From a virus: a stretch of 22,078 nt of DNA. Below, piece after piece: positions 4,638 through 20,611 of this stretch. Position 1 is the stretch's first letter; every line of letters begins with the position of its first letter. Under the pieces are notes generated by a model. It was not told where the DNA came from. It ran no database searches and saw only the letters and a program-made list of their open reading frames with translations. Position numbers and translations under genes: made by a program. The stretch spans positions 1 through 22,078 of the IMG/VR virus record IMGVR_UViG_3300034060_000918; one strand, given 5' to 3'.

Positions 4638-4668
4638 CAAATTTAGTTATTTGTTTGAGAAATCCAAC
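4638..4668 (-). promoter_or_regulatory. Bacteroidota-type promoter for the 132-aa gene
   Basis: On the minus strand a GTTG (4668-4665) is followed after 19 nt by TAAATTTG (4645-4638). The second element is an exact match to the Bacteroidota -7 consensus TAnnTTTG, and the first is close to the -33 consensus TTTG at a normal spacing. The ATG (4624) lies 13 nt further on, so the leader would be very short. The promoter overlaps the last codons of the upstream 183-aa gene. No transcript data are available. Confidence 0.55.
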
Positions 4669-5198
4669 TCTTTTTTTAAGACAGTTAGTTTTTCTTTCTT
4701 TAGATTTGGTGGGCTACACAATTGCCCCACCTCTTGCAGCACAGATTCATCAATATCTAAAGCTCTTGCGTAATCCCTATAATACTTTTCGGGATACAAA
4801 TAACTTTCAAGATGCTCTTTGTTAGCTGTTGATATGCCGTGACATTTAATAATCTTGTCCTTGTATGCATCAGGGAACTTGCTATAGTTGCCGGATATGA
4901 AGGCATCCCATATAGGTAAGCTAGCCATCCGAAATATATAGGCACCTCTTCCATTTGACAGCTCATAATAATCCTCAAATAATACATGATTCATAAGGCG
5001 AGCTTTTTCAAACTGATGAAATTCTGGTGTAGACTGTAAATCAAACACACAGATTAAGAACTTTGCATCGAGATCTAATTCATTATCCCATGCAACATAT
5101 GTCTGATACGGCATAAAATTAGACACATGTATGTCTAATGCAGGATATAAGAATATCCTAGACTTTTGAAAATACTTACCATATACATTTTTGATCAT
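4647..5198 (-). CDS. Conserved phage protein of unknown function (183 aa)
   Basis: No catalytic motif is recognised. The N-terminal half contains KSRIFLYPALDI and a YQTYVAWDNE--LDAKFLICVFDLQ block, then FEKARLMNH and GAYIFRM. The C-terminal half has a WDAFISGNYSKFPDAYKDKII segment, SYLYPEKYYRDYA and a QLCSPPNLKKE end. From memory this overall layout (LYP-L-I ... P-QTY-AW ... F--G-YSK ... E--LYPE-Y) belongs to an unnamed family seen in crAss-like and other Bacteroidota phages. It starts 3 nt after the nuclease stop and carries the next gene's promoter inside its 3' end. Its position between the nuclease and the polymerase suggests a DNA-metabolism link only by association. Confidence 0.65.
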   Translation of the reverse strand: MIKNVYGKYFQKSRIFLYPALDIHVSNFMPYQTYVAWDNELDLDAKFLICVFDLQSTPEFHQFEKARLMNHVLFEDYYELSNGRGAYIFRMASLPIWDAFISGNYSKFPDAYKDKIIKCHGISTANKEHLESYLYPEKYYRDYARALDIDESVLQEVGQLCSPPNLKKEKLTVLKKELDFSNK

Positions 5199-5201
5199 AC
5201 A

Positions 5202-6170
5202 TTATAAAATTACATTACCAACCTCATATTCATAAGGTAAGTCAAATTTTCTATTTGTGTAATGATAGTCTGCAATTTTCATTATCTCATCAAGCTTATC
5301 CATCCAGCTATTAAGAGTTACTTGACTAACTTCAAATGCATAACACTGGGTGAGCTTGTCAACCACTATGAAATGAAATTTAATCTTGTAATCGCTTAAG
5401 CCATAGTTAGCTCTTACTAATTTACAGTACACTGCAGCTTGCAACCAGTACTTATAATACTCTACGGTCTCCGGGAAATCTTGTAATAGTTTTCCACTAG
5501 TCTTGAGATCATTAATATAAATCACTTTGGCACCGTGATCAATATTAACGTTATCTACAAAACCTCTAAGACCAAAGGCATACTGTGTGTCCATTACAAA
5601 TGGCACCTCACTCATACTAAAGGGACCTCCTATATTGAGCAAGCCTGTAATTTTCTCATTAGATCTTACGATCTCAGCATAACCTTTTACTTTAGTCAGG
5701 GTTTCCTCGTCTATAACAGCCTTGTCACCCTTTGTAGTTAAGAAGTTATAGTAACTTATACTTGCGTCAGTTATTACTTTCTCAACTCTTTGTGCATCAG
5801 TCTTGAGACTCTGATACAGATTGATCTCCTTTAGTATATCAAGGATGCCAAACTCATTCTGCTCCAAAGATAAGTCAAGATTATTATTAGCCCATGCTCT
5901 TGTGAACACCTTGTCAATAACATTCTTAATGCTGTCACCCGGCAAATTTACCGGGGACACCACATACTTATCATGAAACTTATCCTCCTCTAAGAGAAGA
6001 CAGTGAAGCAGGCTACCTTCAATCAGGTGCTGCTCCATCTTATCCTCTCTTTGATTTAGGATATAGTGTTTATAAAATGCACTCGGGGCATACAACAACT
6101 TGTTGAACCCGGAATAACTAAAGTGAAACTTCTTCTTGTAGAAGTTCTCCTCCGCTTGGAAATCTATCAT
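5202..6170 (-). CDS. PD-(D/E)XK nuclease (RecE/DUF3799-like exonuclease)
   Basis: The 322-aa protein has the order of motifs of RecB/RecE-type PD-(D/E)XK nucleases: an N-terminal SYSGFNKLLYAPSAFYKHYI helix, an EGSLLHCLLLE motif (51-61), Glu188 in SEVPF, RGFVD with Asp206, the metal-binding IND-K core (Asp221, Lys223) and the downstream Q--VY helix (Gln244). This suits the 5'-3' exonuclease of a phage recombination system, making 3' single strands for the Sak4/SSB pair encoded further up the operon. It lacks the Cys cluster of Cas4/AddB, so it is not a Fe-S member. The first 53 nt overlap the end of the preceding gene; no other ATG is close by, so the overlap appears real. Confidence 0.8.
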   Translation of the reverse strand: MIDFQAEENFYKKKFHFSYSGFNKLLYAPSAFYKHYILNQREDKMEQHLIEGSLLHCLLLEEDKFHDKYVVSPVNLPGDSIKNVIDKVFTRAWANNNLDLSLEQNEFGILDILKEINLYQSLKTDAQRVEKVITDASISYYNFLTTKGDKAVIDEETLTKVKGYAEIVRSNEKITGLLNIGGPFSMSEVPFVMDTQYAFGLRGFVDNVNIDHGAKVIYINDLKTSGKLLQDFPETVEYYKYWLQAAVYCKLVRANYGLSDYKIKFHFIVVDKLTQCYAFEVSQVTLNSWMDKLDEIMKIADYHYTNRKFDLPYEYEVGNVIL

Positions 6171-7242
6171 CTTGCTTGTTTAAAATTTTATCTACCTTGA
6201 CCTGAACCTCAGCTGTTAATCTAACATCTACAACCTCATAGTTACTACTACCTGTATAAGAGTTACTTAATACACTAGCCTTAATAGTATCTAATAGTTC
6301 TTGAGTTAGTAACTTCTTTTCTATAGATACATCTAGGATAGCATCTTTATCCCAGCGATACTTGTTATAACCAAGCCAATTGAGTAAAGACTTAAAGCCT
6401 ACAGTGTTTCTATACTTATGGTTATAGATATGGTTTCTACCGAATTCCTCAAGGAGTAATGCTAAATAAACAAAGCTTTTCTCATAGTTACAACCGGCCA
6501 TAATAGTCATAGCAACTAAGTGATTATCCTTATCCATACTTGTTAGCATAGTTCTCAAAGATTCAAAGGCATCTCTATCAATAACTGTGTCACCAATAAG
6601 ATTGTTGAATACTTCTTGTGAATAAACATTACTAAGATTTGAACTAGTAAGTAAGAAGTCATCTATAACAGTTGTTATATAGTCACCATAGTACTCTCCA
6701 CTTCTAAATGAACTACCATGTAAGATGCTACCGTACATGTTTTTAGTAGGAGAATTGTGATTATTTATATAAAATGGTGTAATAACATTTCTATCTAGAA
6801 TGACATGCTTGCCTGTATAAGTGGCTAGCCGCTCTACAAGATTATGCGCATTACCTCCAATTTTAAAACCATCCGCAAACGGTTTTACATCAGAAGTTTT
6901 TATATAATAAAGGTGCTTTGTATCTAGACCTGCGTCTATAGAATCTGTACCTGCAATAATAATATCTGCAGTGTCCCTATCTCTAACAGTCTTAATCTTC
7001 TTCTCCTCCAAGAAAGGCTTAGCCTTATCTCTAGGAATGCTGCACTTAGGTGCAAAGTATATTGTTTTTACATTAGTGAGATCTAATTTCTTATCAGCAG
7101 TTGACTGCTTAAATACTTTTAGATACTCCTGTTCATTCCAGCGGTAATATAGATATTTTCCTTTATCATCCACTAGTACGCGGCTAGCTTCAAGTACTAG
7201 CTCATTATTACTTACAGTAAGTGTTAGTTGTTCTTGTATCAT
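6118..7242 (-). CDS. Paralog 1 of a MoxR/VWA-linked family (374 aa), BRCT-like N-terminal region
   Basis: No named family is recognised. Residues 59-100 (IYFAPKCSIPRDKAKPFLEE ... DTADIIIAG) have the look of a BRCT-type fold: a strand, a helix after an IPR--- turn, then a strand with a T/SKAD-hhhhG end. Residues 221-268 hold a helical domain (IDRDAFESLRTMLTSMDKDN, then CNYEKSFVYLALLLEEF) that is shared at nearly the same position with the adjacent 370-aa protein and with the shorter protein at 10742-11149. The C terminus overlaps the nuclease gene by 53 nt. It lies two genes downstream of the MoxR ATPase, so an adaptor or substrate-recognition role is possible but inferred. Confidence 0.7.
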   Translation of the reverse strand: MIQEQLTLTVSNNELVLEASRVLVDDKGKYLYYRWNEQEYLKVFKQSTADKKLDLTNVKTIYFAPKCSIPRDKAKPFLEEKKIKTVRDRDTADIIIAGTDSIDAGLDTKHLYYIKTSDVKPFADGFKIGGNAHNLVERLATYTGKHVILDRNVITPFYINNHNSPTKNMYGSILHGSSFRSGEYYGDYITTVIDDFLLTSSNLSNVYSQEVFNNLIGDTVIDRDAFESLRTMLTSMDKDNHLVAMTIMAGCNYEKSFVYLALLLEEFGRNHIYNHKYRNTVGFKSLLNWLGYNKYRWDKDAILDVSIEKKLLTQELLDTIKASVLSNSYTGSSNYEVVDVRLTAEVQVKVDKILNKQDDRFPSGGELLQEEVSL

Positions 7243-7244
7243 AA

Positions 7245-8357
7245 TTAAAATGGTGCTGAGGTCTCCGGTTTAGGCTCCTCTTTAGGTTTGTTTTCATCCA
7301 TAAACTCTTGGTAAGTCTTGGTCCACGAAGGTGTAAGCTTTACATACTTTCTTGCATCATCAGACATGTTATCTTTAACACAATCTTCAATTGTATCCGC
7401 AATAAGATTATCATATATCTCCTCATTTAACCAACCATTCTTATGGAATAGTTTTATAGCAGCGGGATAATCATTATGTCTAAGACTACTTAGATCTAAT
7501 TTACTATTCATAATATTAAAATTATTAGTAGTCATACTATTAGTTATAGTATAGTACTCAGCTTTGAAAAGCTTATAGATATAATACATAGAATTCTCAT
7601 AGTTACAATTGAATAACATCTCTGCAGCAACGTTGCGGTTTTCTATGTCAGCGTTAAACATACTAAATAGAGTATGATATACAGACTCATCTATGGTAAC
7701 ACGCTCTATAGAATTAAAGATCAACTCTTCATCTATAACAGGAGTCTTAGTAGATAGGATACGGTATAACATCTCTACAGTTCTTGGATGTAAGAAGTTA
7801 AAGTCTCTCTCACTATTATGTAAGGGAGACCAAGAATCATAGTACCTGTAATATGCTCTAGAGAATAATACACGATCTTCAGTATCCATTATAGTATTGA
7901 AGACACCACCTTTTGCTTTTATCTTTTCCCTACTAAAGTCATCAGGCATGCGATACTGCATTACAGAACAGTCTTTAACTACAAGACTATTAGGAACTTG
8001 TTGGTCTACATTACCTAAACTTACATTGTTACTATGACCAATAAAGAAATCTGCTTTAGATGCATCATTAGTAATGGTCCAGTTATTTATACGAGCAATG
8101 TCTCTCAACTGACCAACACTATATTTACAACCGGGTATAACATACCCTTTAGATTTAGCAGGTAGGGTAATTAATGCACCCCCCTGGAGGAGTGCATTAA
8201 TCTTTTCTACTGAATCATCATCTACAGTATACAGCCAAGTATGAGGAAGCGCTTTATGCTTCTTATCAACACTGGCATATCTTACCTTTGTTTTAATAAA
8301 TGGTAACTGCTTCAGCATGGTGTCTGTTACATTACCGAGATTCAAATCCATTTTCAT
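7245..8357 (-). CDS. Paralog 2 of the MoxR/VWA-linked family (370 aa)
   Basis: It is similar in length and layout to paralog 1. Residues 60-110 include YVIPGCKYSVGQLRDIARIN then NDASKADFFIGHSN, a BRCT-like pattern that aligns with residues 59-100 of paralog 1. Residues 222-268 (IDESVYHTLFSMFNADIENR, then CNYENSMYYIYKLFKAEY) align with 221-268 there, keeping ID------L--M----D--N--VA and CNYE-S--Y. The two copies have otherwise diverged, so the duplication is old. The C-terminal tail is Pro/Glu/Lys-rich and likely disordered. Its ATG overlaps the end of the MoxR gene (position 8357) and its stop lies 2 nt before paralog 1, so all three are translationally coupled. Confidence 0.7.
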   Translation of the reverse strand: MKMDLNLGNVTDTMLKQLPFIKTKVRYASVDKKHKALPHTWLYTVDDDSVEKINALLQGGALITLPAKSKGYVIPGCKYSVGQLRDIARINNWTITNDASKADFFIGHSNNVSLGNVDQQVPNSLVVKDCSVMQYRMPDDFSREKIKAKGGVFNTIMDTEDRVLFSRAYYRYYDSWSPLHNSERDFNFLHPRTVEMLYRILSTKTPVIDEELIFNSIERVTIDESVYHTLFSMFNADIENRNVAAEMLFNCNYENSMYYIYKLFKAEYYTITNSMTTNNFNIMNSKLDLSSLRHNDYPAAIKLFHKNGWLNEEIYDNLIADTIEDCVKDNMSDDARKYVKLTPSWTKTYQEFMDENKPKEEPKPETSAPF

Positions 8358-9547
8358 TACTTAACTGCAATAGCAGCGATGTTAGCGTTTAACATTAACT
8401 TGGTGAACTTCTTACTTCCGTTAAGGATACCCTTGATAACAGCATACTTCAAGTCATTAGTGAAGATGTCCTTATCAACGATGAAGTTAGTAACACGGTC
8501 AATAATCTTTTGGTCTACCGTATTATCTGTGCTATAATGAACAGCATAGTTAGTGAAGCGCAATGCCAAGATACTAGCAATGTCTGCACGGTATGCATCA
8601 TCCTTACCAATACAAGAATTCATCTGACCTTTAACATACTCCCAACTGTTGTTAGTCAACATGTCCTTAGGAGTAATTAACTTATCTAACTTGTTGTTAA
8701 TGAATGTAGTAAATAGAGTAGCAAACTCGCTACCTACACTACCCTCACCAATCATTTGGATAAGTGGTAAGTCTTTCTCAAAGTTCTCTATACTAGAGAT
8801 ACTATTAAAGAAAGTAGTAATACTACGAGCATTAGTAGTCTGTGTAACCAACTCAGGATGCATCAACAAAAAGTTAATACAACGAGAGTCAATGTTATTC
8901 TGCTCTGCCCAACGAGCCCAGCAATCTGCATCAAACTTTAAGTAAGCTGTGATAAAGCGAGTCTTCTGGGCAGCATCCATAGATGTTACTTGGTAGTCAC
9001 CATTATCTGGATTACTAGTCAATACAATATGCCAGTTCTTTGGTAGTTCCCATGAGATATACTTCTGACGGTCAATCAATTCCATAGCAGCTTGGGTAAA
9101 TCTTTGGTCAGCACGGCTGTAGTCATCTAGGATTAAGATACCACCTTCTTCCTTACCTTGAATCCACTCTGGAGCTGCATAACCCATACGCTTTTCTCCA
9201 CTAGGAACATACTTGTTCTGAATATACATAGGCATGATGTTCTCAGGTACCCACTTAGCTGTTTTCTTGCCATCATCTGTAGTCTTAACTACTTCAAATT
9301 CTTTAATAGGGAAACCTGTAAGGTCACCTAGCTCCTCGATCTGAGCAAGATTCAACTTAACTACATCTAGTCCTAGCTCTTTACCAATCTGCAAAATGGT
9401 AGTGGTCTTACCAATACCTGCCTCACCCTCAATGTTCACTGCTACAGGAATCTTTCCTTCAGTTTGGATGTGCTGGTTATTCTTTACAATGTGACCAATA
9501 AAGGTCTTCAACTCGTCTGTGTTTAAGTTAACTTGATTTGCGCTCAT
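8357..9547 (-). CDS. MoxR-type AAA+ ATPase (AAA_5)
   Basis: 396 aa. It has a Walker A GEAGIGKT at 41-48, a Walker B GILILDD at 136-142, a sensor-1 LTSNP at 176-180 and a DAAQKTRF arginine-containing segment at 191-198. The insertion with GFPIKEFE and the WIQGKEEGG stretch before Walker B are typical of MoxR/CbbQ/CobS-like ATPases. MoxR proteins form hexamers and act with a VWA partner to remodel or activate client proteins; the next gene upstream encodes such a partner. Phage copies are sometimes named CobS, but nothing here suggests cobalamin metabolism. It is spaced 4 nt from the VWA gene. ATPase function is near certain from motifs; the client is unknown. Confidence 0.9.
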   Translation of the reverse strand: MSANQVNLNTDELKTFIGHIVKNNQHIQTEGKIPVAVNIEGEAGIGKTTTILQIGKELGLDVVKLNLAQIEELGDLTGFPIKEFEVVKTTDDGKKTAKWVPENIMPMYIQNKYVPSGEKRMGYAAPEWIQGKEEGGILILDDYSRADQRFTQAAMELIDRQKYISWELPKNWHIVLTSNPDNGDYQVTSMDAAQKTRFITAYLKFDADCWARWAEQNNIDSRCINFLLMHPELVTQTTNARSITTFFNSISSIENFEKDLPLIQMIGEGSVGSEFATLFTTFINNKLDKLITPKDMLTNNSWEYVKGQMNSCIGKDDAYRADIASILALRFTNYAVHYSTDNTVDQKIIDRVTNFIVDKDIFTNDLKYAVIKGILNGSKKFTKLMLNANIAAIAVK

Positions 9548-9551
9548 ACTC

Positions 9552-10745
9552 TTAATTTAATTTAATTTGTGGACCAGGTAGATCCTTGTTTATACTTCCA
9601 CGGGTAGAGATTACCCACAACATTTTGCCTCTTGGCTTTACACTACAATCACATTCACCATCTGTTAAGTATATCAAACAAGTATACTTATCTTGGTGCT
9701 CATTGTACAATTCTAAAACAGGGTCAAAGTAAGTACCACCGCGACCATGTATCTCAATCTTATCTCCAGCCTTGTATGGCCCGATATGACGTATACTTGT
9801 ATCACATTGCACTATAGTTATTTCTGCACCTGTCTTATTGATATGATCAATCTCATGGAAGAACTCTTGTACTTCCTTATCGCTAACGGAACCGCTAGTA
9901 TCTACAGCAACTAAAATATGCTTACGGAATTTAATTTTAAGACCTGGGTTATCCTCAAATCTTTTATTAGATTTACGTCTAAGCTTCTTAGTAAATACTT
10001 TCTGACTACCTCCGGTAAACCTTCTAAGATAAGACTTCCAGTCAAACTTAGCTGGCTCACTACTGTTAAGCTTGTCTAGTAAACCCTTGAGTTCTCCAGG
10101 TACATGACCTCTAGACTTTGCTACTTGTTCTGCAATCTCTTTAAGCTGATGCTCCACTTGCTTTTGAATAAGCTTTTGTTCAGCCTCACTTAAGTCTTTG
10201 AAATCATCCCACGTGCTATGATCAGGAACAGGTTGACCATCACCATAGGTAGGTTGACCTTCATCCATAGCTTTCATCATCTGCTCAAACTTACTAGTAC
10301 CATCTCCGTTATCTTTCTGCTCTTGTAGTAGTTTGTAATACTCTCTACAGCCAGCTTTCTTAGGAAGATTCATAGGTGCAAACATCTCATTGTCAATGGT
10401 ACAACCACCGTCAGGAAGATACTGTGCATCTATATACTGATTAATCTCCAAGTCCATTGCTACATTAGCTAACTTAGGATCTGCAAAGTCATTGTGTATA
10501 GTAAGATGGAAGAATGCAATATGCAATAGCTCATGCTTCAACAAACCTATATGATGCTCAGGACTTAAGCTTTCCCAAAACTCCTCGTTGATCATCAACT
10601 GGAAGTTTATATTATGCTTGCATACACCTGCAGTAGGAACACGCTTGCTCCATAATTTATTTAGTCCAATGAGAAAGAGCCCGTAAAAAGGCTCCTTCAA
10701 CATTAGTTCTTTACTAGCTTTCGCTAGACTATCTTGTTTTGTCAT
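9552..10745 (-). CDS. VWA-like protein with N-terminal HExxH metallopeptidase domain (DUF2201 type)
   Basis: 397 aa. The N-terminal domain carries KHELLH at 70-75 (zinc metallopeptidase HExxH) followed by NVAMDLEINQYI (94-105), the usual downstream element of DUF2201. The C-terminal VWA-like domain has a complete metal-ion-dependent adhesion site: DTSGS at 282-286, Thr338 in GRGGTYFD and Asp362 in YLTDGE. A charged linker (about 150-270) joins them. Such proteins pair with MoxR ATPases, and the MoxR gene follows directly. Whether it cleaves anything, or acts only as a metal-dependent adaptor, cannot be told. The start overlaps the stop of the paralog-3 gene (10742-10745, ATGA). Confidence 0.9.
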   Translation of the reverse strand: MTKQDSLAKASKELMLKEPFYGLFLIGLNKLWSKRVPTAGVCKHNINFQLMINEEFWESLSPEHHIGLLKHELLHIAFFHLTIHNDFADPKLANVAMDLEINQYIDAQYLPDGGCTIDNEMFAPMNLPKKAGCREYYKLLQEQKDNGDGTSKFEQMMKAMDEGQPTYGDGQPVPDHSTWDDFKDLSEAEQKLIQKQVEHQLKEIAEQVAKSRGHVPGELKGLLDKLNSSEPAKFDWKSYLRRFTGGSQKVFTKKLRRKSNKRFEDNPGLKIKFRKHILVAVDTSGSVSDKEVQEFFHEIDHINKTGAEITIVQCDTSIRHIGPYKAGDKIEIHGRGGTYFDPVLELYNEHQDKYTCLIYLTDGECDCSVKPRGKMLWVISTRGSINKDLPGPQIKLN

Positions 10746-11149
10746 TTACCTTTTGGTATTAATGTTAATTGATATTTCTCCATGAAAGTAAAACCGGCAG
10801 TTTCTAATTGCCTCCCTAATTCTTCTGAAAATCTGTTAATAAAGAATCCCATAGCTATTGGATCAACATTCACATTTTTGTGAAGTACATCATACATACT
10901 ATTCCAAGTAAGGACACTGTTATAATCCAAACCAGTAATTTCTTTTAGCTTTGATACAGTATCTGAATCAAGATTTAGATTCTTATGTCCTGCTTCTTTA
11001 CATAACATAAGTATGTAGGGTAAATTAGCCTGGAGATCTGAAGATTCAATAAGATTCTTAACCACAACATGGTTCTCTTTATCTACAGACTTAGCCATTG
11101 ACAACAAGTTCTTATATGTTGATTCATCAAGTTTAAATACTTCTCCCAT
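10742..11149 (-). CDS. Short stand-alone member of the paralogous helical domain (paralog 3)
   Basis: The protein is 135 aa if started at 11149, or 146 aa from 11182. Its N-terminal part (KLDESTYKNLLSMAKSVDKE, then NLPYILMLCKEAG) aligns with residues 221-268 of the two large paralogs at 6118-8357, keeping D----Y--L-SM----D-EN--V and --YI--L-KE. It lacks their N-terminal BRCT-like part. The start at 11149 is preferred because it gives a TAATG overlap with the stop of the DUF6915 gene, the same arrangement seen at 151-155; the longer form would overlap by 34 nt. Together with the MoxR and VWA genes and both large paralogs it forms one coupled cluster. Confidence 0.65.
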   Translation of the reverse strand: MGEVFKLDESTYKNLLSMAKSVDKENHVVVKNLIESSDLQANLPYILMLCKEAGHKNLNLDSDTVSKLKEITGLDYNSVLTWNSMYDVLHKNVNVDPIAMGFFINRFSEELGRQLETAGFTFMEKYQLTLIPKGK

Positions 11150-11490
11150 TAGTCTTCTATTTTTAAAGTTTTTAACATCCATACCGGAGGGTTATTCATA
11201 TTAGTAATCCACTCCTTTGCACTTGGTAGATAACCATTGCAATCTTCTTTTACATGTTGCTCACCTACATAGCGAGTCATAACTTTTTTACCTACTGAGT
11301 TAACAAAAAAAGGTCCGAAGACCCTTTCACATTCAAAGATACCTTCGCTGTGATGCCTGAATAATCTATGCATACTGTGACCATACCAGGCCTTAGTAGC
11401 ATCAAACCACTCCTCAATATGGATGTATTCTTCCCAGGTTCCTCCCCACCGCCTTGCTGCGGATTTGGCGTGCTCTATAGGGTGGGACAT
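11149..11490 (-). CDS. DUF6915 family protein
   Basis: 113 aa. The sequence follows the DUF6915 pattern closely: MSHPIEHAKSAARRWGG at the start, W-D--KAWYGH--HRLFRHHSEGIF in the middle (conserved HR--RHH-EGIF), then NSVGK-V--RYVGEQHVKED and a final W-- ... PPVWM. Function is unknown. Homologs known to me occur in proteobacterial mobile elements, plasmids and phages. The conserved His residues suggest metal binding or catalysis, which is inferred. The HNH gene upstream ends inside its first codons (overlap 11475-11490), and its stop is fused to the paralog-3 start, so it may belong functionally to the MoxR/VWA cluster or be an independent accessory gene. Confidence 0.75.
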   Translation of the reverse strand: MSHPIEHAKSAARRWGGTWEEYIHIEEWFDATKAWYGHSMHRLFRHHSEGIFECERVFGPFFVNSVGKKVMTRYVGEQHVKEDCNGYLPSAKEWITNMNNPPVWMLKTLKIED

Positions 11491-12092
11491 ACTGTTAATT
11501 TTTTAATTGTTATCAAATGTACTTTCATAATCCAATTTTTAAAGTCTTCTAGACTCATATTACTTTTTGCTCTGTTACAAACTTTACAGCAGGTTACAAC
11601 GTTTTCTTTAGTGTAACCTTTAGAAGAGTCTACCCTATCTATACCATTGTATAATATGGGTACACCAGATCTTAATTTACCAGTTTTAGGATTCTTTAAT
11701 TGATAAACTTGTATAGGTTCAATACCGCAGTAGTTACAGTTTTTTTGTGTAAGCTCTTTAAAATAATCAGAGTCTAACTCAAAACTAAACCCTCTATCGC
11801 GAGCATGTTTTTTGTATACATATAGGATAGCTCTATGACCCACATCAGGATCTTTATCTCTTTCAGTTCCTCTACAAGGAGATAATCCACAAGAACTACT
11901 GTTACCATTTCTTATATTATTAAGACATATGGTTTTCAATCTACCACATTTACATTTTGCTTTAATATAACGTTTACCTGTGGTACCATTTTTTGATACA
12001 TCCTCTAAGTATGTCCAGTTTGTTTCTTCACCTTTACGGGTTTTTAGGATACCACCCGCTTTAAAAATAAGTGTTTGTTTAAATGAGCTCAT
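11475..12092 (-). CDS. Free-standing HNH homing endonuclease
   Basis: 205 aa from the chosen ATG at 12092 (MSSFKQTLIF); an ATG 17 codons upstream (12143) would add a hydrophobic stretch that does not fit the family. The N-terminal region has a Cys pattern (AKCKCGRLKTIC, then SSSCG) typical of phage HNH proteins with a zinc-binding or DNA-binding front end. The HNH core is at the C-terminal side: CNYCGIEP, then YNGIDRVDSSKGYTKENVV, then CCKVCNRAKSNMSLEDF. Such enzymes nick or cut DNA and spread their own gene. It is inserted between small accessory genes and the DUF6915 gene, with a 76-nt upstream region containing inverted repeats. Confidence 0.88.
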   Translation of the reverse strand: MSSFKQTLIFKAGGILKTRKGEETNWTYLEDVSKNGTTGKRYIKAKCKCGRLKTICLNNIRNGNSSSCGLSPCRGTERDKDPDVGHRAILYVYKKHARDRGFSFELDSDYFKELTQKNCNYCGIEPIQVYQLKNPKTGKLRSGVPILYNGIDRVDSSKGYTKENVVTCCKVCNRAKSNMSLEDFKNWIMKVHLITIKKLTVCPTL

Positions 12093-12096
12093 GTAC

Positions 12097-12145
12097 GTAT
12101 GATTATATGTTAATACATGTACAATGTACAACAAAATAATCATAC
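12097..12145. promoter_or_regulatory. Nested inverted repeats upstream of the HNH gene
   Basis: A perfect 10-bp inverted repeat (12097-12106 GTATGATTAT with 12136-12145 ATAATCATAC) flanks a 29-nt centre that itself holds TGTACA-A-TGTACA (6+1+6 dyad). The whole lies in the gap between the 84-aa gene stop (12169) and the HNH start (12092). It could be an operator for the endonuclease gene, a structured leader, or the scar of its insertion. Other than these dyads the gap shows nothing clear; no good -33/-7 pair was seen. Confidence 0.45.
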
Positions 12146-19679: not shown

Positions 19680-19929
19680 AGTCTTGCATTACTCTATAAT
19701 CTCTTAGATCAATATAATAGTTACGACAGCTTGCTATATCATTAGCAATAACCTTAACAATTTCCTTAGCACGGTCCATCTTGATATCAAACTTAGATAG
19801 AGCATCATATAAACATTTGTTCTTTATGGTTATTCTACCTTTACCTTCAACCTCAAACCACATCTCTCCAAAGTTTACATCTATAAATGCAGACACTTTT
19901 ACTTTACCAGGATATTTTGGTTCCTCCAT
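19639..19929 (-). CDS. Hypothetical protein (96 aa)
   Basis: No family is recognised. The N-terminal half is beta-rich (KVKVSAFIDVNFGEMWFEVE, then GRITI), the rest helical (LYDALSKFDIKMDRAKEIVK), and the tail acidic with a Glu/Thr run. It overlaps UDG upstream (26 nt) and the DnaA-like gene downstream (41 nt). Overlaps on both sides, in different frames, show an unusually compact arrangement and argue that it is a genuine coupled gene. Confidence 0.6.
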   Translation of the reverse strand: MEEPKYPGKVKVSAFIDVNFGEMWFEVEGKGRITIKNKCLYDALSKFDIKMDRAKEIVKVIANDIASCRNYYIDLRDYRVMQDYEEERTETAEAAC

Positions 19930-20611
19930 CTTGTTCTAAATATTTGTTAATCTTATTCCACATGTCTTCACAGTCCCATTCTTCTTGATTTTCATAAGCA
20001 GCACTCGCAGGATGCGATACCATAATCTTATAATTGTTATCAGGAATTAGATCTGCATACTCTTGAGCTTTCTTACCTAAGAACACATAGATGAGTCCGG
20101 GCTTTTCCCAAACTAAACTATCTAATACTTGTACAAGAAAAGGACGCCATAATAAATAGTGACTACCTGGTTTATTTATCACCGTAGTAAATGCACTATT
20201 TAATAATAACATACCTTGATTAGCCCAAGGCTTGAGATCACAACTACCGATATAACCGGGAACTGCTGTCTTTTTAATAGACCCGTGCATATATGCAAGA
20301 GAGGCTTCTATCTTACCTTTCTTACTACAGCTAAATGCTAAGCCATCAGCAACATTAAGTTGCGGATAGGGATCTTGACCGATGACAACTACTCTTGTAG
20401 TATCAAAAGGACATTCCTCAAAAGCATTAAAGATATCTTTAATCTTAGGAGTGAATCTTTTATTATCTAAGGCATCTTTGAGAAGCTTATCTAATATAAT
20501 ATCCATATCTTCTCCCAGCATAAAAGTTCTTAGCTTGGCACCCCAACCACAAGGTTGAAGTTTGCTTACGAGTTTTTGTTTTACATCTTGTAGGTTTACA
20601 CTTTCTAGCAT
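19904..20611 (-). CDS. Uracil-DNA glycosylase (family 1-like)
   Basis: 235 aa. The water-activating loop is VIGQDPYPQL (77-86) with catalytic Asp80, then DGLAFS (89-94). LLLNSAFTT (135-143) holds the uracil-binding Asn138, and the leucine-loop motif is SHPASAAY (199-206) with His200. This is the fold and order of family 1 UDG. The usual GQDPYH reads GQDPYP, and HPSPLS reads HPASAA. UDG is a regular member of crAss-like replication modules. It removes uracil from DNA and so could guard phage DNA together with the MazG-like enzymes. It lies 25 nt from the divergent plus-strand gene and overlaps the 96-aa gene. Confidence 0.92.
   Translation of the reverse strand: MLESVNLQDVKQKLVSKLQPCGWGAKLRTFMLGEDMDIILDKLLKDALDNKRFTPKIKDIFNAFEECPFDTTRVVVIGQDPYPQLNVADGLAFSCSKKGKIEASLAYMHGSIKKTAVPGYIGSCDLKPWANQGMLLLNSAFTTVINKPGSHYLLWRPFLVQVLDSLVWEKPGLIYVFLGKKAQEYADLIPDNNYKIMVSHPASAAYENQEEWDCEDMWNKINKYLEQDGGTKISW

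Follow-up and report, generated by a model that had tools for sequence, protein, structure and literature searches.

A conserved phage gene block of a MoxR ATPase, a DUF2201 VWA protein and three related partner proteins

Known MoxR–VWA systems and the present locus

Pairs of a MoxR-type AAA+ ATPase and a VWA protein of the DUF2201 type are already known in phages, both N4-like and jumbo. In this study, such a pair and three partner proteins (P1, P2 and P5) were analysed in a virus record of 22,078 bases (IMG/VR record IMGVR_UViG_3300034060_000918); this whole stretch is called the window. The five genes lie on the minus strand and are transcribed in the order P5–VWA–MoxR–P2–P1. In 25 N4-like phages, gp24 and gp25 belong to the 14 core genes and were listed as unknown and vWFA (PMC4193335). 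The N4 proteins gave E values of 1.7e-34 (gp24) and 3.4e-37 (gp25) against the present MoxR and VWA family profiles, whereas the N4 gene order is MoxR, VWA and then dCTP deaminase. For this pair and its Schitoviridae homologues, neither the N4 record nor that of SBP1 contained a P match, and the only hit in pYD6-A (E 0.0012; 14 named phage records searched) fell in a frame with four stops and was discarded as noise. In the group 2.2 jumbo phages, MoxR and a metallopeptidase–vWA protein were termed a chaperone–cochaperone pair (PMC7824862). The two-protein architecture is the same, with the peptidase N-terminal to vWA, but the role proposed there is virion assembly, and the available part of that source names no third component. 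A phage MoxR ATPase has been reported for cyanophage too (PMC9964418). In Vibrio phage phiKT1024 (L049), one of 14 comparison regions, MoxR was found and a DUF2201-type VWA protein was not.

The bacterial VMAP and iSTAND ternary conflict systems add a third component to MoxR–vWA; VMAP systems are reported to keep a strict order, VMAP–MoxR–vWA, and the vWA proteins of these conflict systems bear variable effector domains (PMC7159879). The present block is instead phage-borne, its vWA is fused to a zincin, and its partners have probable BRCT-like and ARM/HEAT-like domains; its order (VWA–MoxR–P, with P5 upstream) does not match that of VMAP. As to a VMAP-C or STAND-like third component, P1, P2 and P5 had no accepted match in Pfam, a scan made without profiles dedicated to VMAP-C or iSTAND. 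Two other motors offer an analogy of mechanism, in which an AAA+ ring acts with a metal ion-dependent adhesion site (MIDAS) that grips an acidic residue. In Rea1 (Midasin), the metal site and a glutamate that serves as its ligand hold the ubiquitin-like (UBL) domains of the two substrates, Rsa4 and Ytm1, which have this docking domain in common (PMC6624252), and CbbO was modelled with its MIDAS on an acidic residue of rubisco (PMC4660213). The analogy is limited to mechanism; docking here would involve an unrelated helical domain rather than a UBL domain or the rubisco surface.

The initial annotation had proposed a self-contained remodelling machine with dedicated paralogous partners. The co-occurrence and gene order described below agree with that proposal, but the MoxR–VWA pair itself is not new; the new part is the partner set P1, P2 and P5. 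No description of this set was found in the literature covered on phage and crAss-like MoxR proteins and on phage BRCT, MIDAS and AAA+ proteins, with most subscription journals outside that coverage.

The two core proteins were intact, as first annotated. The VWA protein contained the motif HELLH and the MIDAS residues DTSGS...GGT...TDGE, and both halves of the DUF2201 family scored above their Pfam cut-offs (DUF2201_N, 3.6e-18, 66.6 bits against 23.2; DUF2201, 4.4e-17, 62.8 bits against 26.4). HExxH, DxSxS and GGT were present in 93 of 93 unique VWA relatives and TDG[ED] in 91 of them. The protein matched PHROG 1314 (8.6e-67), and 378 phage records were matched by tblastn. Both PHROG 1314 and many phage records give this zincin–VWA family the label 'HNH endonuclease', which is probably a propagated misannotation. 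A weak centrin match among solved-structure sequences (E 0.0061) was discarded.

The MoxR protein had GEAGIGKT as Walker A, LILDDYSRAD as Walker B and LTSNPD as sensor 1. Both Walker patterns were kept in all 87 unique relatives of 380–440 aa, and the aligned columns retained sensor 1 LT[STA]NPD (ANP forms included), TR[FY] and NxRS/A with conserved arginines. The second acidic residue of Walker B was aspartate (DD) in 87 of 87; MoxR proteins usually carry glutamate at this position (DE). The protein matched PHROG 1297 'ATPase' (4.1e-39) and stayed below the Pfam cut-offs for AAA_5 (17.9 bits; cut-off 22) and AAA_3 (13.8 bits; cut-off 27), while all five of its matches among solved-structure sequences were midasin. 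In some relatives, MoxR was split by group I introns near codons 146–148, within the Walker B segment. The introns of L041 and L042 look like copies of each other, the MoxR gene of L084 is split near the same place as in L041–L043, and in L042 the MoxR gene is also split near codon 75 and the VWA gene near codon 99.

Conservation of the block and its partner proteins

The block was compared across related phages by an IMG/VR scan with the MoxR alignment, which gave at least 599 stretches and at least 524 relatives. The best 80 loci were analysed; they were ranked by MoxR similarity and include near-duplicates, and hence are not independent. VWA was upstream of MoxR in all 78 testable loci, within 19 nt in 70 and at 158–810 nt in eight. 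A P1/P2-type gene was downstream of MoxR in 65 of 65, within 105 nt in 63 and at 613 and 735 nt in the other two. Where at least 3 kb of downstream sequence was available, two such genes were present in 38 of 55 loci and one in 17. P5 was found upstream in 65 of 76 testable loci, and a more sensitive look recovered six of the 11 missing copies (E 1.6e-6 to 3.8e-4), which raised the count to 71 of 76. The remaining five loci (L125, L134, L137, L152 and L161) formed, with L135, one clade of P2-type proteins (six rows) in the P tree. In three of these five, L134, L137 and L152, a 284-aa open reading frame (ORF) with a C-x3-C-x2-C motif lies directly upstream of VWA.

The genes thus kept their order across many related contigs, as the initial annotation would have it, and the partners were not seen to occur regularly without the pair. 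Both VWA and MoxR were held by 26 of the 28 loci found by P queries, and the two exceptions were cut by ends (in L065 the contig starts within P2, and L005 starts within MoxR); the contigs found in this way largely overlap those found through MoxR. Furthermore, 19 phage records of 98–123 kb were searched whole, and P matches occurred nowhere outside the cluster.

The limits of the block were set by conservation and not by spacing. The five genes are tightly packed as annotated, with gaps of -4 (P5/VWA), +4 (VWA/MoxR), -1 (MoxR/P2) and +2 nt (P2/P1), but the close spacing extends past them: the DUF6915 gene overlaps P5, and the PD-(D/E)XK nuclease gene overlaps P1 by 53 nt. A five-gene boundary drawn from spacing alone was therefore rejected. 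In 47 of 51 testable loci the nuclease gene followed the last P gene at a distance of no more than 2.5 kb, and the DUF6915 gene was upstream in 46 of 67.

P1, P2 and P5 gave no accepted Pfam domain and no PHROG match at E 0.1. Single-pair BLASTP joined P1 with P2 (E 9e-6), P1 with P5 (E 8e-7) and P2 with P5 (E 0.002) over stretches of 49–60 residues. In iterated profiles over the relatives, P1 was joined to P2 across roughly 280–300 residues, and P5 fell on the C-terminal part of P1/P2. Judged by these alignments, the three proteins are genuinely related, beyond what chance would give. The single shared helical domain that had been annotated holds for all three, but P1 and P2 have their N-terminal half in common as well.

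The history of P1 and P2 was examined with a midpoint-rooted FastTree tree of 97 P1/P2-type proteins, in which the 'single' copies include loci cut by contig ends. One clade comprised every MoxR-proximal copy (33) together with 13 single copies; every distal copy (37) fell into the other, along with 14 single copies. The simplest reading of this tree would be one old duplication with later losses.

A DNA-level search of the cluster among phage records gave no match, tblastn of P1 and P2 in phage records gave nothing at E 0.1 (P5 was not searched that way), and the P profile found nothing credible among solved-structure sequences. The P1 profile weakly matched a fragment of the N4 RNA polymerase (E 0.0033), which was judged to be chance, and the whole N4 record gave no match. 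The cellular search covered 299 genomes of one bacterial phylum, with other phyla, Bacteroidota included, outside it. P homologues occurred in a single genome, a metagenome-assembled genome that also yielded the phage-like contig L166, so no cellular source of P was indicated in that sample.

The fold of the partners was explored with AlphaFold2 models (P2, predicted local distance difference test (pLDDT) 81.4, predicted template modelling score (pTM) 0.58, 17 sequences; P1, pLDDT 87.9, pTM 0.78, 97 sequences), which were compared with known structures by VIA-align. A Z under 8 in this tool may reflect merely a common arrangement. For P2, the best 29 rows were BRCT domains, with a top Z of 6.9 over 67 residues and a root-mean-square deviation (rmsd) of 2.8; most are so named in their titles, and a few (SMARCC1, XRCC1 and TopBP1 entries) are taken to be BRCT. 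For P1, the top row was a PARP BRCT domain (Z 6.4, 76 residues, rmsd 3.4), and eight of 50 rows were BRCT, five by title and three that we take to be so. Most other rows were helical-repeat structures on residues 217–311, the best being the MAST/Orbit N-terminal domain (Z 6.3). A bacterial LigA BRCT profile could be aligned in the same register with A1, an alignment of 17 rows, and scored 23.1; column shuffles, 200 in number, reached 16.2 at most. On the models, the N-terminal domain of P1/P2 is likely BRCT-like; P1 and P2 would probably consist of a BRCT-like and an ARM/HEAT-like helical domain, and P5 of the helical domain alone. The helical domain has a turn, M-x-x-S-x-D-x-[DE]-[ND], in the alignment of 205 unique P rows. 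Among rows with a residue there, serine was present in 83%, and the two acidic positions were acidic in 79% and 88%.

A proposed remodelling machine and its rivals

The block likely encodes a protein-remodelling machine. Our best, though tentative, reading is a Rea1/CbbQO-like MoxR–MIDAS motor that has adaptors of its own and may act on complexes of DNA replication or recombination. The analysis shows which genes are present, that their motifs are intact, that they nearly always occur together, that the partners are paralogues, which domains are predicted and that the cluster lies in the replication block; from this we infer every interaction, the client and the peptidase activity. The MoxR ring would carry one or a few DUF2201 proteins, whose MIDAS metal site may grip an acidic residue of a partner, as does the MIDAS of Rea1 on Rsa4/Ytm1 or that of CbbO on rubisco. 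P1, P2 and P5 would be alternative partners docking by the shared ARM/HEAT-like domain, in which the conserved S-x-D-x-[DE]-[ND] turn is a candidate ligand of the MIDAS. Through their BRCT-like domains, P1 and P2 may direct the machine to a nucleoprotein or DNA-end complex of the phage replication or recombination apparatus. ATP hydrolysis would then pull apart or activate the targeted complex, and the HExxH domain may clip the client.

Several links lead to this proposal. The block fits the prediction of the CbbQO authors that targets are bound through MIDAS in similar systems (PMC4660213): it combines a motor, a MIDAS subunit and up to three paralogues with an acidic turn. DNA-linked clients are pointed to by the BRCT-like domains, the frequent downstream nuclease gene and the location on the replication side. 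The introns within the Walker B segment were also counted in its favour; group I introns often occupy conserved sites in indispensable genes. A sharper version, in which the block is a split-subunit analogue of Rea1/Midasin, is a good deal more doubtful. A single MoxR ring with a single MIDAS–zincin subunit would serve two or three paralogous adaptors (BRCT-like plus ARM/HEAT-like) that compete for the MIDAS through the acidic turn (candidate residues P5 D34/E36 in the numbering of the 146-aa start, and their equivalents), and ATP would be used to remove factors from replication or recombination complexes of the phage, or to load them there.

Other observations weigh against this machine. Nine named phage records with MoxR–VWA, N4, AR9 and RaK2 among them, had no credible P protein, and the basic job of the pair can therefore dispense with the partners. 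The six-row lineage keeps the P2-type partner only: P5 is absent from it (five of five loci), the second P gene (P1) is absent in all four loci with enough sequence (L125, L134, L135 and L161), and in the same four the PD-(D/E)XK gene was not within 2.5 kb. For the predicted fold, the BRCT Z scores of 6.4–6.9 are below the tool's mark of 8, the P1 and P2 models had no confident PDB match by Foldseek alone (E 0.18 or worse), and the Pfam scan of P1 and P2 gave no BRCT. The LigA profile scored only 17.6 against a larger alignment of 129 rows (shuffle maximum 16.3), and unrelated real alignments scored 19.2 (A5) and 16.7 (A4) against bacterial BRCT, so the support for BRCT from sequence comparison is weak.

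A role in virion assembly, with the P proteins as assembly adaptors, was weighed against the genome context. Such a role was already proposed for the jumbo-phage pair (PMC7824862), following work on ATV in which p618 was a virion component that bound p892 and three virion proteins and not viral DNA (reviewed in PMC4124505); moreover, four virion proteins of RPP1 are encoded near its gp24/25 homologues (PMC4193335). On the related contig G001 (120,320 bases), which has terminase and portal matches in PHROG, the cluster instead adjoins nuclease and DNA polymerase genes and lies with this block leftward, whereas terminase, portal and virion genes lie rightward. N4 gp24/25 are also middle transcripts (PMC4193335). 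Virion assembly is considered unlikely.

The G001 terminase also bears on the lineage. It matched 135 phage records, the best 15 rows being mostly 'uncultured phage cr...' at 23–27% identity over 85–91% of the query, and all three of the records examined are listed as Crassvirales, Suoliviridae. Among viral structures, the P1 model matched only four at E 0.001 or better, all of uncharacterised proteins; phage ctz6O13 contributed two of them and 'CrAss-like virus sp. ctYsL76' one. Four named Crassvirales phages and Cellulophaga phi38:1 had neither P nor the VWA protein. The lineage appears to be distantly crAss-related, and it is not called a member of the order Crassvirales.

Host takeover or counter-defence is about as improbable as virion assembly. 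The machine would unfold or cleave a host protein (a defence complex, or a nucleoid or transcription factor), and the P proteins would be recognition heads tracking host variation. Median identity to the window over 14 relatives was 93% for MoxR, 88% for VWA, 77% for P5, 70% for P1 and 50% for P2, so the partners diverge faster than the core, and in VMAP systems the third component and vWA likewise evolve faster than other conserved proteins (PMC7159879). This divergence is unexceptional in the genome, where the DNA polymerase stands at 70% and two genes nearby at 43% and 54% (13 relatives), and P1 is hence not unusually fast-evolving. Anti-defence genes usually show patchy spread, in contrast to the retention of gene order and both paralogues across a deep lineage; P1, P2 and P5 also lack an accepted Pfam domain.

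The least probable alternative is that the P proteins are clients, a DNA-binding P1/P2 complex doing the work (for example, as recombination mediator for the adjacent nuclease) while MoxR–VWA assembles or recycles it: the nearby nuclease gene and the predicted BRCT and ARM/HEAT folds, which are common among DNA-repair scaffolds, suit it, but P5 has no BRCT-like domain, and on sequence alone it is hard to tell from the motor with dedicated adaptors.

If the split-subunit version is correct, a large crAss-related phage lineage would keep an adaptor-switched remodelling motor as a permanent part of its equipment. N4 gp24 and gp25 are listed with no known function (PMC4193335), though MoxR–VWA pairs are conserved in many phages. 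The P partners are candidate MIDAS ligands and so allow a direct approach to the question of what these motors target; their predicted fold hints at DNA-linked work in families that have no accepted Pfam or PHROG matches.

Feature coordinates and neighbouring genes

Table 1. Features of the block, its neighbours and related contigs. Positions refer to the window unless a locus is named.
Feature	Position	Strand	Remarks
P5	10742–11149	-	Small helical-domain protein, 135 aa; internal ATG start, also used by several relatives
P5, alternative start	11182	-	146-aa product
VWA	9552–10745	-	DUF2201 protein; zincin-like HELLH domain and VWA domain with complete MIDAS
MoxR	8357–9547	-	MoxR-type AAA+ ATPase; PHROG 1297 and motifs
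P2	7245–8357	-	MoxR-proximal partner; probable BRCT-like and ARM/HEAT-like helical domain (AlphaFold2 model, VIA-align)
P1	6118–7242	-	Distal paralogue of P2 (AlphaFold2 model); clade distinct from that of P2
PD-(D/E)XK nuclease	5202–6170	-	DUF3799 / exonuclease VIII-like; usual downstream neighbour
DUF6915 protein	11149–11490	-	Pfam 1.6e-38; frequent upstream neighbour, not a constant member of the block
Group I intron in MoxR	L041:3604–3830		Rfam RF00028
Group I intron in MoxR	L042:9731–9957		Rfam RF00028
Group I intron in MoxR	L043:9714–9950		Rfam RF00028
284-aa ORF	L134:3948–4802		Radical-SAM-like by eye
284-aa ORF	L137:524–1378		Radical-SAM-like by eye
284-aa ORF	L152:529–1383		Radical-SAM-like by eye
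Endonuclease VII/HNH-like ORF	11475–12143		Overlaps DUF6915 gene
Gene between nuclease and polymerase	4647–5198
235-aa ORF	19904–20611		PHROG 12143 (function unknown)
4,815-residue ORF	L204:3970–18417		On contig G001

The endonuclease VII/HNH-like ORF was 100% identical in some relatives (L009, L014 and L031) and was not found in L003, L006 and L007, which are equally close by MoxR, as expected for a mobile homing endonuclease gene. The gene between the nuclease and the polymerase had 42–46% identity in 13 relatives, compared with 72–99% for MoxR across 14 relatives, yet it was 99% identical in L010, a pattern that looks like allele replacement. The 4,815-residue ORF was seen on the related contig. 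The 235-aa ORF of the window contains a VIGQDPYP motif and by eye resembles uracil-DNA glycosylase.

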